Of a stretch of 64,000 nt of DNA, positions 41,849-52,939 are shown piece after piece (the first letter of the stretch is position 1; every line of letters starts with the position of its first letter). Position numbers and translations under genes: made by a program. This DNA is from an uncultured Pelagibacteraceae bacterium (lineage in GTDB: Bacteria; Pseudomonadota; Alphaproteobacteria; Pelagibacterales; Pelagibacteraceae), in contig CACKCM010000006.1 in NCBI GenBank assembly GCA_902598735.1, positions 1 to 64,000 of the forward strand. The letters run 5' to 3'. Below the pieces are notes generated by a model. The model ran no database searches, was not told where the DNA came from, and saw nothing but the letters and a program-made list of their open reading frames with translations.

Positions 41849-43162
41849 TTAAATCCATCCATTATCCCCAGATAAATGATAATTATTCTTTAAATTATAT
41901 TTTTTCCACGCTCCATCATGATCAATAATTAACCTGCAATTTTTTAAATACTTTTCTAAAATTTTTTTTGATATATTAAATTGTCTATGTTCAACAGTAA
42001 TTATTAGGCAATCAAAGTTTTGTAAATCTTTAGGAAAATTAAAAGTTTTTACTTTTACAGCTTTGTATATCTCTTTTTTAGTAAAATATGGATCAAATAA
42101 TCTTACTTTTAACTTTTTTTTCAACAGAGACTTAACTAAAGGAATGACTTTGGAAAGAACACTTACTTTTAAATCTCCTTTATAGGATAAACCAAGAATA
42201 CCAATTTTTTTCAAACCTTTACTTGCGATAGAATTCGCAATTGATTTACTCATTCCATCATCTGTTTTGATTGTTTCTCTTAGCAAGGAAAGCTTATTTA
42301 TATTTTTCACTTGAGATAAAATGTATCTGCTTGATAGAGGAATACAATATCCTCCTGCACCTATACCAGGATGAAAAGTTTCAACATTCCACTTAGTCCC
42401 GACAAGTTTCAGAACTTCTCTTATATTATCTTTTGGAAAAGCTAAAGAAAGTTGATTTGCTAAAGTAATATCCATATGTCTATAGGCATTCTCTACACTT
42501 TTTACCATTTCTGAAACTCTATAAGAACTTGCTACATGAAGTTTTTTACAAACAATAGACAGCACATCTTTTGCAACTTTCGTAGATTGTCTATCTGTAG
42601 ATCCATACACTCTGTCTAAATTTTCAAGATTCTTGCCACCTTCTATAAACCAGTCTCTTCTTGGGGCAATTGATAACAAAATATTCTTGCCAACAATCTT
42701 CTTTTTCTTTTTTAAAAAGGGGATAATTTTTTTATCAGAAACTTTGGGGGCTAGAGTCGACTCCACAATTATTATTGGAGGATTTTTAGGATTATAATTT
42801 ATTTTAGATATATTATTAAGAACATTAAGTAATGGTTTATAATAAGGTTTGCCATCTTTTTCTGTTGGAATTGCGATAAAATGTACTAGAAAATCTTCAG
42901 TTATAAGATTTTTATAATTAGACGTAGCTTTTAAAAAATTTGATTTTACTAATTTTTTAATATCGAACCCAAACCAATTTTCTAAATCAGCAAGAGGAAG
43001 GACTCCTGAATTAATTTTGTTAATTTTATCTTTATTGATATCGTAACCAACACATTTAACTTTTTTCTTAGCAAAATAAACCATCGTAGATAAACCAATA
43101 TAACCAGTACCCCAAACTGCTATTTTAAATTTTTTTGATTTTAGTAATTTTTGATAATTCAT
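41849..43162 (-). CDS. nucleotide-sugar dehydrogenase (UDP-HexNAc dehydrogenase-like)
   Basis: A 437-residue enzyme of the UDP-glucose/GDP-mannose dehydrogenase family that oxidises C6 of a UDP-sugar to a uronic acid with NAD. The Rossmann site is AVWGTGYIGLS (residues 15-25), the conserved VESTLAP is at 133-139, and the catalytic Cys273 is in GAGGYCIPL. The CIPL form resembles the UDP-N-acetylhexosamine branch (WecC, WbpA, TviB) more than UDP-glucose dehydrogenase (CFPKD). With the downstream epimerase this would give a UDP-hexosaminuronate, as in TviB/TviC. Confidence 0.9.
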   Translation of the reverse strand: MNYQKLLKSKKFKIAVWGTGYIGLSTMVYFAKKKVKCVGYDINKDKINKINSGVLPLADLENWFGFDIKKLVKSNFLKATSNYKNLITEDFLVHFIAIPTEKDGKPYYKPLLNVLNNISKINYNPKNPPIIIVESTLAPKVSDKKIIPFLKKKKKIVGKNILLSIAPRRDWFIEGGKNLENLDRVYGSTDRQSTKVAKDVLSIVCKKLHVASSYRVSEMVKSVENAYRHMDITLANQLSLAFPKDNIREVLKLVGTKWNVETFHPGIGAGGYCIPLSSRYILSQVKNINKLSLLRETIKTDDGMSKSIANSIASKGLKKIGILGLSYKGDLKVSVLSKVIPLVKSLLKKKLKVRLFDPYFTKKEIYKAVKVKTFNFPKDLQNFDCLIITVEHRQFNISKKILEKYLKNCRLIIDHDGAWKKYNLKNNYHLSGDNGWI

Positions 43163-45031: not shown

Positions 45032-47433
45032 TAAGACCTAATTGTAGCGCCTGTTTTTTCTTTAACTACATCAATAATTTTTTTACTAATCTGATCGATA
45101 TCTTTTTCACTCAAAGTTTTATTTAAAGACTGTAAAGTAACATTAATTGCAACTGATTTTTTATCTTTGGGAATATTTTCTCCTTCGTAAACATCAAAAG
45201 TTGTAACTTCTTGAATGAGTGACTCATCTATTTCTTTAATAATCTTTTCTAACAACCCTATCTTAAAAATTTTATCAATTACAAAAGCGAAATCTCTTTC
45301 AGATTTTTGAAAATCTGAAGGTTTAAAACTTTTTTTTAGTTGTCTTAACTTTTTATTAGGTTCTGGTATATTCTTTAAAAATATTTCTAGTCCATAAATA
45401 TTTGGCTCTTTAAAATCCAATTTTTTTACTATGGCAGGATGTAATTCTCCAAAGTAAGCGAGGTGAGGGCCTTTTTGTGATTTTAAATTTATAGAACCAG
45501 ATCTTCCAGGATGGTAGCACTGTTTTGTATTATCACTTATAAAAAGCTCTCTCTCAGATAATCCAAATTCAATTAAAGTTTTGACAACGTCGCTTTTTAT
45601 ATCAAACACATCTATATTTCTCTCCTTTTCAATCCAGCTTTTTCTATTTACTTTCCCTGACTTTAAAGCGCCAGCTACAATTTGTTGTTCTCCAGGATTT
45701 TTTCCAAAAAATACTGGCCCTATTTCAAATAGAGATACATCCTCATAACCTCTATCTTGGTTTTTTTTTAGATAAATTGAAAGATTTGAAAAGATTGATC
45801 TTCTCAAAACATTAAGATCCGAAGAAATAGGATTTAAAATTTGAATTTCCTTTTCACCTTTTGAAAATTGACTATCAATTTTAGAGTCAGTAAATGACCA
45901 GGTAACTGACTCGAGAAATCCTTTTGATGCAAGAGATCTTTGTGACAAATGAAATAGTTTTTGTTTAAAATTTAAAGTTTCATTTTCTCTAATTCTATCA
46001 GGGGTGATTAGTTTTATATTTTTGAAACCTTTAATTCGTATAAGTTCCTCAATTATATCTACATCTTGACTAATATCTGGCCTCCATGAAGGAATTTCTA
46101 CTTTAAGATTTTTTTTTTCTTTTTTGCAAATAAATCCTAATGAAATCAGAATTTTTTGTGCCTCATTAAGAGAAATTGGTATACCAATTAAATTTTCAAA
46201 ATTATCAATATCAAAATTTATAATTTTTCTTTTTTGAGAATTTTTTCCGGTAATCGTAAATTTGCTAGCTTCCCCTCCACATATCTTCAATATCAAATCG
46301 GTAGCAACTTGTAAGCCCTCTGATACAGATTTGGGATCAATGCCCCTTTCAAATCTAAATTTTGCATCAGTATTAATTGCTAATTCTCGAGATGTTTTTC
46401 TAATTGAAGATGGTAGAAAATATGCAGATTCAAGTAAAATATTTTTAGTATCGAATTCTGTCGAAGTTTTTGTTCCCCCAATAATTCCACCGAGGCCCAA
46501 AATACTAGACTTGTCAGTGATAACACACATCCCTTTTTTAAGTTTATATTTCTTATTATCTAGTGCTTCAAATTCCTCACCTTCTTTTGAGTCTCTTATA
46601 ATTATCTCTCTATCAATTTTATCTGCATCATAAGCATGCAATGGACGGTTCAAATCAAACATCACATAATTAGTAATATCAACAACAGCAGAGATTGGTT
46701 TCAAGCCAAGAGCATAAAGTTTATTTTTTAACCATTCTGGACTCTCTTTATTAACTATATTTTTAATATAACAACTTCCAAATGTGAGACACCCTTGATG
46801 CTTATCTTTAATTATAGAAGTCTTAACCTGATGCTTAAAGCTTTGTTTTATCTTTTTTCTTTTTGAAGTTATTAATTTTCCTATTCCAGTAGAAGATAAA
46901 TCTCTTGCTATACCTCTTATACCTAAACAATCTGGCCTATTTGGTGTAATTGCAATTTCGATTGCTTTTACTGATTTACTTTTAAAGAAATTTTTTCCTA
47001 TTTCTTTTTCCCTAGTATTTAATTCTATTATTCCGTCACTCGCATCTGATAAATTCAGCTCACTCTCAGAACACAACATGCCTCGGGACTCAACTCCTCT
47101 TATTTTAGCAATTTTTAATTGGAACTTTGTTTTAGGTATTATAGCCCCTGGCGGAGCATAAATTGTTATGAGTCCATCTCTTGCATTAGGTGCTCCACAT
47201 ACAACTTTTAAAGTTTCTTTTCCACCGATGTTAACATCACACACTTTCAATTTATCTGCGTTAGGATGTTTCTCGGCTTTGATAATTTTAGCTATTTTAA
47301 AATCACTTAGCTCTCCAGAGTTTTCTTTTACACTTTCAACCTCTAAGCCAATATTAGTGAGTTTATTTATAATTTCATTTTCGTTTGCATTAGTTTTTAA
47401 ATGCTCTTTTAACCATGGAAGCGTAATAATCAT
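45031..47433 (-). CDS. pheT: phenylalanyl-tRNA synthetase beta subunit
   Basis: PheT forms the alpha2-beta2 PheRS with PheS. The 800-residue protein has the EMAP/tRNA-binding domain at the N-terminus ([17 protein letters not shown]), the B3/B4 editing region ([19 protein letters not shown]), the B5 domains and a C-terminal anticodon-binding FDX-ACB domain ending [16 protein letters not shown]. It overlaps pheS by four bases. Confidence 0.97.
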
Positions 47434-48497
47434 TTACTTAATCCTCTATAGTTTGTTGGCACATCTAAAGGGTCAAAACCAAAATGACTTAACCATCTAT
47501 AATCTGATTCAAAAAAAGCTCTTAAATCATTAATTCCATATTTTAACATGGCCAAACGATCAATACCCATCCCGAATGCAAATCCTTGATACTTTTTTGA
47601 ATCAACTTTTACATTTTTAAGAACATTGGGATGAACCATTCCGCAGCCTAATATTTCTAACCATTTATTGCCTTCACCAATAACGATTTTTTCATTCTCA
47701 ATTCTGTATCCAATATCTACTTCAGCAGATGGTTCAGTAAATGGGAAATGACTAGGTCTAAATCTCATTTTAATGTTTTTGACTTCAAAAAATTCTTTAA
47801 TAAAATAATCTAAACATCCCTTAAGATGGCCCATAGTAATATTTTTATCAATGTGAAGACCTTCTAATTGATGAAACATTGGAGCATGAGTTTGATCACT
47901 ATCACATCTATAAGTTCTACCAGGAACTATTATTTTAAATGGTGGTTTTTCATCAAGCATTGCTCTAATTTGTACTGGAGAAGTATGTGTTCTCAAAAGA
48001 AGTTTTTTATTTTTTTCCAAATAAAATGTGTCATGCATATCCCTTGCCGGATGATCCTCGGGTGTATTTAATGCTGTGAAATTATTATACTCAGTTTCAA
48101 CATCCGGCCCCTCTACAACAGTAAAACCAACTTCAGAAAAAATAGCAGAAATTTCATCTATGACTTGAGATACCGGATGTATTTTTCCTAGCTGATATGG
48201 TCGGATCGGTAAAGTTACATCCACTTTTTCATTTTTTAACTTATCGCTAATTTCTGCATTCTCAATTTCAAAACTTTTTTGTTCAATCTGATTGGATAAA
48301 TCGTATTTAATCTTGTTTAAATTTGAGGCAAAATCTTTTCTTTTTTCAGGTTCCAGCGCACCTAATGTTTTGAATTGTTGTGTGATTTGTCCGTTTTTTC
48401 CAAAAAACTCAGTTTTTAAATTTTTTAGATCTTCCTTTGTTTTAACAGAGTCAATTTTAGCATTGAAGATAGAATTTATTTTGTCCAAATCGCTCAT
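47430..48497 (-). CDS. pheS: phenylalanyl-tRNA synthetase alpha subunit
   Basis: PheS is the catalytic class II subunit that charges tRNA-Phe. The 355 residues comprise an N-terminal coiled coil (about 1-85), motif 2 in [10 protein letters not shown] and [15 protein letters not shown], and motif 3 in [18 protein letters not shown]. It lies 49 bases after rplT and overlaps pheT. The only tRNA-Phe gene in the window, at 8772, is structurally unusual, so the pair is of interest. Confidence 0.97.
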
Positions 48498-48539: not shown

Positions 48540-48546
48540 GACCCTT

Positions 48547-48903
48547 TTAACCAAGGGAAGATTGAACCTTTTTTACTACTGATTTAAAGACTTCTGGATT
48601 ATCATAGGCTAATTCAGCTAAAACTTTTCTATCTAATTTGATTTTGGATTTAGCCAAACCATTAATAAACTTTGCGTAGGTTAAGCCTTCTGCTCTTACG
48701 CCAGCGTTAATTCTTTGAATCCATAGTGATCGAAATTCTCTTTTTTTTGCTCTTCTGTCTCGATAAGCATATTGCATGGCTTTTTCCATTGCTTGACGAG
48801 CTATTCTGATTGTATTTTTTCTTCGACCGTATTGTCCTTTAACCAATTTAAGGACTTTCTTATGTTTCGCCCTACTTACTACACCACGTTTGGTTCTTGC
48901 CAT
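48547..48903 (-). CDS. rplT: 50S ribosomal protein L20
   Basis: L20 helps assemble the 50S subunit. The 118-residue basic protein starts [20 protein letters not shown] and has [20 protein letters not shown] and [10 protein letters not shown], all conserved. The normal order rpmI-rplT-pheS-pheT is kept. In other bacteria L20 represses its own operon; no such site is evident. Confidence 0.98.
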
Positions 48904-48904
48904 A

Positions 48905-49111
48905 TTATCCTCTTAAATTATATGGCATATACGACTTAACAATTCTGCTATCTTGTTTTGTCATTATCGTAGTGCCTCTTTGTTTTCTTATTTGAGAGTT
49001 AGTTCTTTTGATCATACCATGACGTTTGCCTGCCTGAGGCATTTTGATTTTACCTGAGGCTGTAAATCTAAATCTTTTTTTTGCAGAGCTTTTTGTTTTA
49101 AGTTTTGGCAT
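48905..49111 (-). CDS. rpmI: 50S ribosomal protein L35
   Basis: The 68-residue L35 starts [20 protein letters not shown] and has the conserved [15 protein letters not shown] segment. It heads the rpmI-rplT-pheS-pheT-lepA run. The usual upstream partner infC is separated here by a gene on the opposite strand, so rpmI needs its own promoter; one is visible at 49123-49151. Confidence 0.98.
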
Positions 49112-49122
49112 AATTATGCGGA

Positions 49123-49151
49123 TTTATATATATAATCAATATACTTTACAA
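49123..49151 (-). promoter_or_regulatory. candidate sigma-70 promoter for rpmI
   Basis: On the minus strand TTGTAA (49151-49146) is followed by a 17-base spacer and TATAAA (49128-49123). The -10 box ends 12 bases before the rpmI ATG, giving a very short leader. This fits the displaced operon start. Confidence 0.55.
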
Positions 49152-49192
49152 GATGATTCTCTCTTTTAAATTTACTTTTAATATTTATAAAT

Positions 49193-49222
49193 TTGTTCTA
49201 AATTGTAGAAAAATTGTATAAT
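49193..49222 (+). promoter_or_regulatory. candidate sigma-70 promoter for the radical SAM gene
   Basis: TTGTTC (49193-49198) precedes TATAAT (49217-49222) with an 18-base spacer; the perfect -10 box lies 24 bases before the ATG at 49247. It is one of the best promoter matches in the window and means the inserted gene has its own transcription. Confidence 0.6.
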
Positions 49223-49246
49223 TACTTAAAAGTTTAAACCAATACC

Positions 49247-50467
49247 ATGTATAATTATTTAATATCAGTAATAAAGAAGACATTTCCTAGATTCTATATT
49301 TTTTTAAAAATTATAAAAAATAAAATTTTATTTGGAAAACATTACATTAAAAAAAAAGAACTTGAAACTTTTGGTCTTATTAAAAGCGTAGAAAATGAGA
49401 GTTTTTTTGAATATCAAAAAAAAGAATTTTTTAAAAATAAAGACACTAAAAGTAAAACTGGTATCTTAGAAATAAATAATAGTTGTAATATTAATTGTGT
49501 GATGTGTGATACTAAAAGTTCAACGAGGCAGAAAAAATTAATGGACTTAGATCTTTGCGAAAAAAGTGTTAAACAAATGAAAGAGGATGGAGTTACTTCT
49601 GTTCTATTACATACTATAGGCGACCCGCTGGCTAATGCTAAATTAAAAGATTATCTTAAAATTTTAAGAAAATATAATTTGCAAGCTGGGATAAGTACGA
49701 ATGCACTCATGCTCGATAAGCATGTTGATACTTTAAAAGAATATTTTGATATTTGTTCAAGTATAAGGTTTTCAATAGATGGAGTAAAAAAAGAGACATA
49801 TGAAAAAATTAGATTTGGAGGAAAATTTGAGAAGCTAATTGAAAATTTAGAACTTGCACAAAAAAAATTGAGGGTAATAGGTTTTGAATTTATGATTGAT
49901 TTAGTTATCACTAAAGATAATTTTAGTGAGCTTGGTGACTTTGTAGTTTTTTACAAAAAATATATTAATAATCCTTATAAAAATATGCACTTTAACTTTA
50001 TGAATAGTTTGTCTCCAAACAACGACTATTTTCTAAAAAATAATACCCTCGAACAACATACTTCGAAAAACTTTTATTGTAATTATGCTTCTAAATTAAC
50101 TCCTTATGTTTTAGTTGATGGAAGAGTTTCTGCATGTTGTAGAGATTATGATGGTTCGCTAGTGGTTGATGATATTAACCAGAATAAAATTAATACTATG
50201 CAAAATAGCAATGGATTTAAAAATTTACAGCAAGCTCATATGGATGAAAATGGAAAAATTAATGACTATAAGCTTTGTACTTCATGTTATGTAGTTGACA
50301 ATAGAGTTGATCAGATTTGGCGTAATATAATTGCTTCAATTTTATTTAAATATCCAGATGAAAATGCAAAATTTTATCAAGAAATATTTAACGAAACTTT
50401 AGAATTTTTAAAAGATCTTAACACATTAAACTATCAAAAATTACAAAACAAATTTCTTACAAATTAA
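49247..50467 (+). CDS. radical SAM protein with SPASM-type C-terminus
   Basis: A 406-residue radical SAM enzyme. The cluster motif is C80-x3-C84-x2-C87 (ISOLATED in NNSCNINCVMCDTK). The core includes the SAM-binding HTIGDPL and FSIDGVKKETYEKIR segments, and a C-terminal SPASM-like Cys set lies at 278, 297, 298, 344 and 347, suggesting a second Fe-S cluster. The N-terminal about 70 residues are extra. Related proteins act on sugars, peptides or carbon skeletons; the substrate is unknown. It lies on the opposite strand between infC and rpmI. Confidence 0.86.
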   Translation: MYNYLISVIKKTFPRFYIFLKIIKNKILFGKHYIKKKELETFGLIKSVENESFFEYQKKEFFKNKDTKSKTGILEINNSCNINCVMCDTKSSTRQKKLMDLDLCEKSVKQMKEDGVTSVLLHTIGDPLANAKLKDYLKILRKYNLQAGISTNALMLDKHVDTLKEYFDICSSIRFSIDGVKKETYEKIRFGGKFEKLIENLELAQKKLRVIGFEFMIDLVITKDNFSELGDFVVFYKKYINNPYKNMHFNFMNSLSPNNDYFLKNNTLEQHTSKNFYCNYASKLTPYVLVDGRVSACCRDYDGSLVVDDINQNKINTMQNSNGFKNLQQAHMDENGKINDYKLCTSCYVVDNRVDQIWRNIIASILFKYPDENAKFYQEIFNETLEFLKDLNTLNYQKLQNKFLTN

Positions 50468-50473
50468 ATTTTG

Positions 50474-51019
50474 TTATAGTGGTTGAATTATCATTACCAT
50501 CTGTCGACCTTCAAATTTTGGTTTACTCTCGACTTTTGCGATATCTTTAGTTTCCTCGATAATTCTATCCATTAGTTCTTTGCCTAGATTTGTATGCTGC
50601 ATTTCACGACCTTTAAATTTTACAGTAAATTTTACCTTATCTCCCTTTACAATAAATTTTTTCGCATTTTTTATTTTAAAGTTATAGTCATGAGTTTCTG
50701 TCCCTGGCCTTAGCTTGATCTCTTTTAATGAAACTATTTTTTGTTTTTTTCGTGCTTGATTAGCTTTTTTTTGTAAATCATACTTATATTTACCCATATC
50801 CATGATCTTGCAAACTGGTGGATTTGCATTTGGAGAAATTTCTATTAGGTCTAATCCTTCTTGTTTTGCTAAATCAATAGCTTTTTTAAGAGGCATAGTG
50901 CCTAAATTACCTCCCTCACTTCCAATTACCTGGACATCCAACGCTCTAATGCGCTCGTTTGCCCTGGGTCCTTGAGGTTTGTTTTTTTTGTAAAAATGTT
51001 GTGGTTTAGAATTTGGCAC
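50474..51019 (-). CDS. infC: translation initiation factor IF-3
   Basis: IF-3 keeps the 30S subunit free and checks the start codon. The 181-residue protein has the N-domain segment GPRANERIRALDVQVIG, the linker with KKANQARKKQK, and the C-domain ending KFEGRQMVMIIQPL. The start is GTG at 51019, directly after the thrS stop TAA and in the same frame; the family N-terminus fits this position and no ATG is near. A non-ATG start is well known for infC (ATT in E. coli, used for autoregulation). Confidence 0.96.
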   Translation of the reverse strand: MPNSKPQHFYKKNKPQGPRANERIRALDVQVIGSEGGNLGTMPLKKAIDLAKQEGLDLIEISPNANPPVCKIMDMGKYKYDLQKKANQARKKQKIVSLKEIKLRPGTETHDYNFKIKNAKKFIVKGDKVKFTVKFKGREMQHTNLGKELMDRIIEETKDIAKVESKPKFEGRQMVMIIQPL

Positions 51020-52939
51020 TTAATTTAATGGCAACTTATTAAGATCTAACATATTTTTAATGATGTCCTCTCTTTTTAAAACTTCCTGTTTATCTGAACC
51101 TAATTTACGAACAGTAACGGTATTGTTTTCAACTTCTTTTTTTCCGCAAACTAAAATGTAAGGTATTTTAGCTAAAGAATGTTCTCTTACTTTATAATTT
51201 ATTTTTTCATTCCTTAAATCCATGTCACATTTTATACCCTCTTTAAACAGATCTTTAAATAAATTTTTCACATAATTATTATTTTCCTCTGCGATAGTGC
51301 ATATAATTGCTTGAGCTGGAGATAACCAAAAAGGTAATTTACCTGCATAGTTTTCAATCAAAATTCCAATAAACCTTTCTAAGGATCCAAATAAAGCTCT
51401 ATGAAGCATTACAGGAACTTTTTTTGTCCCATCTTTAGAAACGTAAGAGGCCCCTAATCTTTTTGGTAAATTTAAATCAACTTGAAGCGTCCCACATTGC
51501 CAATCTCTGCCAATCGCATCCCTTAAGACAAATTCAATTTTGGGTCCATAGAAAGCACCTTCTCCTTTATTAATCGTATACTCTAGACTCGTTTTTTTTA
51601 TAGCAGATAAAAGAGCTGCTTCAGACTTATCCCAGATATCATCATCCCCAACTCTTTTATCAGGTCTATCTGAATATTTTAATATGACATCTTTAAAACC
51701 TAAGTCTTTATAAATTTCTAAAATCAAATTTGTTACTGATAGAGACTCAGAAGTAATTTGATCTTCAGTGCAAAAAATATGAGCATCATCCTGCGTAAAA
51801 GCTCTAACTCTTAATAAACCGTGAAGAGCTCCAGAGGGTTCATATCTATGTACTTTTCCAAACTCTGAAAGTTTGAGCGGTAAGTCTCTATAACTTTTTA
51901 AACCTTGATTAAATACTTGAACACATCCTGGACAATTCATAGGTTTAATCGCAAAAGTCTTTTCATCAGGTGTTTCTGATGTAAACATATGTTCTCCAAA
52001 TTTTTCCCAATGACCAGATTTTTCCCATAACGTCTTATCTAAAAGTTCAGGAGTATTTATTTCTTTATACCCTGCTAATCTTTGTTTCATTCTCATATAC
52101 TCAACCAATCTTTGGAACAGAAGCCATCCTTTTTCGTGCCAAAAAACAGATCCTGGGCTCTCCTCTCTAAAATGGAATAGATCCATTTCTTTGCCCAATT
52201 TTCTGTGGTCTCTTTTTTCCGCTTCTTCTAATCGATGAAGATATGATTCTAAATCTTTTTTTGTGCTCCAACAAGTTCCATAAATTCTTTGTAACATTTC
52301 ATTATTGGAGTCACCTCTCCAATATGCCCCTGACACTTTAGTCAACTTGAAGGCTTTTCCAATTTTTCGTGAAGAGGCTAAGTGTGGGCCTCTACATAAA
52401 TCATGCCATGTATCGCCATGATGGTAAACCGAAAGTTCTTCATTTTCCGGAATACTTTCAATAATTTCTGCTTTATATTTTTCTCCAATTTTTTTAAAAT
52501 GGGCAATTGCAACTTCCCTATTCCAAACTTCTCTTTTTGTTTTTACATCACGATCGATAATTTCAGACATTTTTTTCTCAATTTTTTTTAAATCTTCACT
52601 CGTAAATGGTTCTTTCCTTGCAAAATCATAATAAAAACCATTTTCAATTACTGGACCAATAGTAACTTGTGTACCGGGAAACAATTCTTGTACTGCCATA
52701 GCCATGATATGAGCTGCATCATGTCTTATGACCTCTAGACCCTCTCTATCTTTAGGCGTGATAATTCTTACTTTTGAGTCTCTTGTAATTTTATGGCTTA
52801 AATCTTTTAGCTCACCATTAACTTCCATTATAAGGGCTGCGCTTTCGAGAGATTTGCTAATTTTTTTTACCAACTCAAAACCACTTATAGATTTTGTAAA
52901 AGGAATTTTTTTTCCATCTAATAATTGAATTGCTGGCAT
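51020..52939 (-). CDS. thrS: threonyl-tRNA synthetase
   Basis: ThrRS charges tRNA-Thr and edits mischarged serine. The 639-residue protein has an N-terminal TGS domain (about 1-60), the editing domain with HDAAHIMAMAVQELFPG, the class II core with KPMNCPGCVQVF (Cys ligand of zinc) and motif 2 HRYEPSGALHGLLRVRAFTQDDAH (read in two parts), and a C-terminal anticodon domain. It starts on the last base of the upstream glycosyltransferase stop (TAATG) and abuts infC. Confidence 0.98.
   Translation of the reverse strand: MPAIQLLDGKKIPFTKSISGFELVKKISKSLESAALIMEVNGELKDLSHKITRDSKVRIITPKDREGLEVIRHDAAHIMAMAVQELFPGTQVTIGPVIENGFYYDFARKEPFTSEDLKKIEKKMSEIIDRDVKTKREVWNREVAIAHFKKIGEKYKAEIIESIPENEELSVYHHGDTWHDLCRGPHLASSRKIGKAFKLTKVSGAYWRGDSNNEMLQRIYGTCWSTKKDLESYLHRLEEAEKRDHRKLGKEMDLFHFREESPGSVFWHEKGWLLFQRLVEYMRMKQRLAGYKEINTPELLDKTLWEKSGHWEKFGEHMFTSETPDEKTFAIKPMNCPGCVQVFNQGLKSYRDLPLKLSEFGKVHRYEPSGALHGLLRVRAFTQDDAHIFCTEDQITSESLSVTNLILEIYKDLGFKDVILKYSDRPDKRVGDDDIWDKSEAALLSAIKKTSLEYTINKGEGAFYGPKIEFVLRDAIGRDWQCGTLQVDLNLPKRLGASYVSKDGTKKVPVMLHRALFGSLERFIGILIENYAGKLPFWLSPAQAIICTIAEENNNYVKNLFKDLFKEGIKCDMDLRNEKINYKVREHSLAKIPYILVCGKKEVENNTVTVRKLGSDKQEVLKREDIIKNMLDLNKLPLN

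Follow-up and report, generated by a model that had tools for sequence, protein, structure and literature searches.

We have found a radical SAM gene inserted antisense between infC and rpmI, inside the translation operon of a SAR11 bacterium (Pelagibacteraceae). The ORF of 406 aa occupies positions 49247-50467 (+) of the window, by which we mean the whole 64,000-nt stretch of DNA that was analysed. As far as sequence can show, the insertion is real, recent and specific to one lineage. The explanation we favour, and hold to be rather likely, is a lateral insertion of a single gene into one SAR11 lineage; the gene would encode a twitch-type radical SAM enzyme, probably one acting on surface glycans. 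The insertion is a new case of the core gene indels known in SAR11, and what it adds is that members of one gene family occupy two joints within a single translation operon, plus a third core joint elsewhere.

The interrupted infC-rpmI junction

The minus-strand gene order in the window is thrS, infC, rpmI, rplT, pheS, pheT, lepA. The features of the region are listed below; the operon genes, as well as all genes without a library scan, were named by reading their translations.

47430-48497, minus strand: pheS (the rplT/pheS joint is empty in the window and filled in AG-920-I21)
48547-48903, minus strand: rplT (L20)
48905-49111, minus strand: rpmI (L35)
49123-49151, minus strand: ancestral rpmI promoter, TTGTAA-17-TATAAA, 11 nt upstream of rpmI
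49159-50473, plus strand: inserted segment with approximate borders, from the old rpmI promoter to the infC stop codon, absent from relatives (gap alignment)
49168-49208, plus strand: upstream block common to the window and AG-920-I21 copies (local alignment)
49193-49222, plus strand: probable promoter of the radical SAM gene, TTGTTC-18-TATAAT, 24 nt upstream of the ATG
49247-50467, plus strand: radical SAM/SPASM-twitch gene, 406 aa (PF04055, PF13186, conserved cysteines, dN/dS)
50474-51019, minus strand: infC (IF-3), with a GTG start directly after thrS
51020-52939, minus strand: thrS

The borders of the inserted segment were taken from a gap alignment with 91 relatives, the left border being set by eye. 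The first-pass annotation had described a radical SAM/SPASM-like gene on the plus strand between infC and rpmI, and this arrangement is confirmed: the gene converges on infC, with its stop codon ending 6 nt from the infC stop.

To place the junction among relatives, 121 genomes of the same genus were searched, 96 of which have infC, and the infC-rpmI gap was measured in the window and in 91 other loci holding both genes (four truncated infC matches, in G272, G732, G767 and G734, were left unmeasured). The gap is 52-63 nt long in all 91 other loci and 1362 nt in the window; the inserted gene thus lies between neighbours that are adjacent in every one of these relatives. The junction is uninterrupted also in L069/G738, the nearest relative of the window in the operon trees, for which the length filter retained 87 of 93 sequences. 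A sample of 117 genomes across the order contained 105 with infC, and 58 of the 105 infC matches were not fetched; in the 44 loci examined from it the gap is invariably short (47-82 nt). Five of these 44 loci (L209-L213) belong to the genus of the window, three of them coming from genomes already counted. The possibility that the arrangement is ancestral, which the first-pass annotation had named as fatal to its reading, is rejected within SAR11 by these uninterrupted gaps.

We also considered an artefact of assembly or amplification that joined foreign DNA into the operon. The genome (G000) is indeed a draft of 889 kb in 20 contigs and 84% complete, but both junctions are clean within one contig, the low GC content of the insert (0.248) is typical for the flexible genes of this genome, and an independent copy of the gene lies in the same operon of AG-920-I21; an artefact is hardly credible. 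As to the means of insertion, no direct repeat spanning the insert was found, and no recombinase within it. A weak inverted pair (22 nt, 73%) lies close to the ends of the insert, but the AG-920-I21 copy lacks an equivalent at its own ends. A transposon or an integron cassette is rejected in the absence of convincing repeats and of a recombinase in the insert.

Promoters and control of the operon

Upstream of rpmI the uninterrupted gaps contain a CTTGTAAAG-spacer-TATATAA promoter, which a simple score recognizes in 90 of the 91 genus gaps. All 44 gaps of the order sample show a TATAA-type box before rpmI; a TTGTAA-type −35 element can be made out clearly there in genera g1, g6 and g9, and less clearly in the others. 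This promoter is intact in the window at 49123-49151 (−); the insert separates it from the infC stop codon and has displaced no more than about 10 nt (as judged by eye). By comparison with these gaps, the rpmI promoter is judged to be old and to predate the insertion. The first-pass annotation had it that rpmI gained its own promoter; this is rejected, as the promoter is already present across the uninterrupted gaps, and an easy misreading of the region is thereby corrected.

A plain promoter scan found 22 promoters where 25.6 ± 5.7 were expected from shuffles. Since such a scan does no better than shuffles, all promoter calls made here rest on comparison with relatives. The radical SAM gene probably has a promoter of its own, as claimed: TTGTTC-18-TATAAT is present and the AG-920-I21 copy has TTGCAA-16-TATAAA at a like position, but the scan of the single sequence lends it no support.

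According to the first-pass annotation the insertion breaks operon control of the IF-3/L20 type. Autoregulation by IF-3 in E. coli depends on an infC start codon of the AUU type, and an infC operon under IF-3/L20 control is expected to have a discriminated infC start of the non-AUG type. In 54 of 56 loci the infC start codon is a GTG that directly follows the thrS stop. The distance from the −10 box to the rpmI ATG is only 11 nt, giving a leader of about 5 nt, which is too short for an L20 leader, and no L20 leader was found when 5.8 kb of the window and five relatives were scanned with Rfam. With infC normally GTG-started and no L20 leader found, nothing shows an IF-3/L20 control that could be broken, and the claim is not supported; a leader or control of an undescribed kind may operate. 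The gene order is like that of the infC-rpmI-rplT operon of E. coli and B. subtilis, which is under IF-3/L20 control according to PMC6097659; the present operon differs in the GTG start of infC, in the promoter within the infC-rpmI gap and in having no detectable L20 leader. With an rpmI promoter older than the insertion, control of the operon need not have been disturbed.

In the course of events that we propose, a self-contained unit (roughly 90 nt with the probable promoter, plus the coding sequence) would have entered the space that separates the infC stop codon from the old rpmI promoter. Both flanking transcription units would have kept their starts after the insertion, which is probably why it was tolerated.

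Copies at other core-gene joints

Close copies of the gene are rare. Among 169 genomes of the genus, it was found at an identity of at least 72% only in the window genome and in G826, which by its matching coordinates and score is evidently AG-920-I21, with 14 other genomes giving matches of 25-31%. In a scan of 397 genomes of the family three pass an E-value of 1e-25, namely the window, AG-920-I21 and G908, a genome of another genus. The only strong match in a sample of 297 genomes of the order is the window itself (the others have 25-30% identity), and a sample of 398 genomes of the phylum adds one more that passes, G415 (41%). A scan of named genomes yielded 11 loci: AG-920-I21 (72%), AG-439-F23 (48%), two alphaproteobacterial MAGs, a Magnetococcales MAG, Magnetovibrio, a Phycisphaeraceae MAG and four remote loci. 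A record of Candidatus Muiribacterium halophilum carries five radical SAM matches close together (L120 7815-17516).

Of the records retrieved by tblastn, two were of phage, both Wolbachia phage WO (23-25% identity), and 22 were of plasmids, with less than 80% of the query covered in every case; on these grounds phage or plasmid cargo is rejected. A scan of viral contigs with the protein alone gave no relative, and with the alignment it gave 26 loci at 23-32% identity.

In AG-920-I21 the copy lies antisense between rplT and pheS (L110 10001-11221), with its end overlapping rplT by 9 nt, and the infC-rpmI gap there is a normal 60 nt. The rplT-pheS gap is 29-55 nt long in the other 86 loci measured and 49 nt long in the window. 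A block of 42 columns upstream of both copies aligns with a score of 47, which was reached by none of 2000 shuffles and by one of 1989 control pieces, so that the gene together with its upstream region is likely to be the inserted unit. At the same joint in the window, a terminator-like hairpin (48542-48557) overlaps the rplT stop codon; the CTTTGATTT run after this hairpin recurs in most of the relatives compared and is replaced by the insert in AG-920-I21. Downstream of lepA the window has a gene resembling UDP-glucose dehydrogenase (41849-43162), and AG-920-I21 has a GT4 glycosyltransferase (L110 3509-4620) adjoining tRNA-Ser; since the two SAR11 carriers differ here, the site seems to be a further variable joint.

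The third site is that of G908, where the contig start truncates the copy and two uncharacterised ORFs follow on the same strand, the last of which ends 2 nt from the infA stop, tail to tail. In the five other loci of that genus scanned for tRNAs (25 were fetched), tRNA-Phe invariably follows infA. The region of infA and tRNA-Phe varies within this genus (g9), with a radical SAM trio in L236 (960-2472), a methyltransferase gene antisense behind infA in L279 (1710-2573) and an acyltransferase-like ORF after tRNA-Phe in L275, the last named by reading alone. A pair of ORFs without a Pfam hit above the cut-off recurs beside radical SAM/SPASM genes in two SAR11 genomes, at 960-2472 in L236 and at 7829-9359 in L282.

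That the copies of three SAR11 genomes each occupy a different joint between core genes argues for lateral insertion. The alternative is vertical descent with local moves, in which the ancestor of these SAR11 genera had the gene, most descendants lost it and the survivors shifted joints. The window gene and the AG-920-I21 copy are 75.3% identical at the DNA level, much as the two operons are (76.0% for DNA, 79.9% for protein), and this similarity of divergence leaves room for descent with loss and movement. The gene tree also groups the two same-genus copies, albeit weakly (0.74 / 56), as would be seen under vertical descent; in the operon trees AG-920-I21, which is distant from the window, is not part of the clade of 19, with full support, to which the window belongs, and the placement of AG-920-I21 itself is poorly supported. 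Vertical descent would, however, have to accommodate the 167 of 169 genus genomes that lack a close copy (the genomes being incomplete), the 91 junctions seen directly to be empty and the three sites of the three copies, and we consider it rather unlikely.

Values of dN/dS among the three SAR11 copies are 0.09-0.13; they are between-species values and rough, with dS at 1.5-2.3. Judged between copies in this way, purifying selection is seen to act on the radical SAM protein. This selection bears on a further suggestion, that the main significance of the insertion lies in cis, with convergent transcription from it tuning infC: the convergent stop codons are only 6 nt apart and no terminator-like site was found between them, but the selection on the protein speaks against it. 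Moreover, the AG-920-I21 copy faces a different gene, and tight convergent pairs are common in the window, where seven others are spaced at −30 to +2 nt (by ORF coordinates); the 6-nt convergent junction is ordinary there. We regard a role in cis as very improbable.

Wilhelm et al. 2007 (PMC2217521) compared two SAR11 strains and reported 62 gene indels in their core regions, with purifying selection evident on variably present genes and with rearrangements concentrated at operon boundaries. The window gene is like these polymorphic gene indels in being a single gene between conserved core neighbours and under purifying selection. It fits the pattern because the insert adjoins an internal promoter, which is in effect a boundary of transcription units. 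It differs from them in that it lies within a translation operon, beside the internal promoter, and in that the same family fills a second joint of the operon in another species. Literature searches, with most subscription papers outside reach, returned nothing on this insertion.

The enzyme and its probable role

The product of 49247-50467 matches PF04055 (E 2e-20) and the SPASM domain PF13186 (E 2e-6), both above the Pfam cut-offs. All NCBIfam matches are far below their cut-offs (the best has 77 bits vs 380), so that no named equivalog fits. The radical SAM motif CX3CX2C is found at C80/C84/C87, with the cysteines present in all eight homologues covering them, and four C-terminal cysteines, C278, C297, C344 and C347, are invariant in nine of nine aligned homologues. 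Full SPASM enzymes, which have two auxiliary clusters, carry about seven conserved auxiliary cysteines; in view of only four invariant C-terminal cysteines, and despite the PF13186 match, a full SPASM enzyme is rejected. The radical SAM/SPASM-like identity given earlier is therefore upheld as one of the radical SAM/SPASM-twitch kind: from its domains and cysteines the protein is predicted to be a twitch-type radical SAM enzyme with a putative auxiliary cluster.

A profile built from nine homologues has BtrN as its top match in the PDB (E 2e-15), the four C-terminal cysteines of BtrN being aligned, and BtrN is also the first Foldseek match of the predicted structure (pLDDT 88.8). In VIA-align BtrN ties with SuiB at Z 20.3, with an rmsd of 3.0 over 231 residues for BtrN and 4.2 over 271 residues for SuiB. 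As several families lie within one Z unit of each other in that list, the fold does not single out a reaction. BtrN, as described in PMC9012708, uses four cysteines to ligate a single auxiliary cluster and carries out the two-electron oxidation of an aminocyclitol; its structure (PDB 4m7t/4m7s) shares with the window protein the radical SAM domain and the four cysteines at matching positions. Unlike BtrN, to which it is 17-20% identical in structural alignments, the window protein has a longer helical part at the N terminus and no antibiotic cluster around its gene.

The enzyme might instead modify a small peptide, as other SPASM enzymes do, and the peptide-modifying SuiB and anSME are indeed close in the structure list. 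No candidate RiPP precursor was found upstream of either copy, though: the 135-nt gap upstream of the window gene holds only frames of 17 and 22 aa, and nothing alike precedes the AG-920-I21 copy. Together with four rather than seven conserved auxiliary cysteines, this makes a maturase of the RiPP type distinctly unlikely.

A surface-glycan role is probable, to judge by the company that homologues keep. Three homologues (L111, L115 and L116) lie among glycan-type genes; these glycan-cluster enzymes are 32-46% identical to the window protein and have the same four auxiliary cysteines, whereas the window copy is solitary and outside any glycan cluster. The two ORFs beside the G908 copy have homologues (44% and 41%), also adjacent, in AG-439-F23, in a cluster with genes for UDP-GlcNAc 2-epimerase, Polysacc_synt_2, an RmlD-like protein, GT4 and an NAD-epimerase, followed by another SPASM radical SAM gene. 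Against the glycan reading stand other surroundings, namely flagellar (L112), phosphate-uptake (L113) and pilus/cell-wall genes (L114), as well as the tie between BtrN and SuiB, a peptide cyclase. The search for partner genes, which the first-pass annotation had proposed, succeeded at G908 but not for the window copy: the first G908 partner ORF has no match in the window genome or in G826, both of which are incomplete. Partner genes travelling with the window copy are accordingly rejected, and this counts against the explanation that we favour.

If the enzyme does act on glycans, it would cleave SAM at a [4Fe-4S] cluster and abstract hydrogen from a surface-glycan precursor resembling a sugar or a cyclitol. 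The electron would be passed, as in BtrN, to one auxiliary [4Fe-4S] cluster held by the four cysteines, and the product would be an oxidised or epimerised surface sugar.

Going further, one may speculate that a surface-glycan cassette, consisting of promoter and gene, moves between SAR11 species without a recombinase of its own and settles repeatedly, tail to tail, behind infC, rplT and infA; we think this quite unlikely. If true, a one-gene cassette for surface variation would sit at core-operon addresses instead of in hypervariable islands, and the joints behind infC, rplT and infA would be places where core operons tolerate it.

The insertion as observed shows that a streamlined bacterium accepts accessory genes even within its translation operon, at a joint beside a conserved internal promoter. 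One enzyme at three core-gene joints of three SAR11 genomes makes a concrete system for the movement of single genes in SAR11, and a family without a named NCBIfam equivalog above the cut-off offers sugar chemistry that can be tested.
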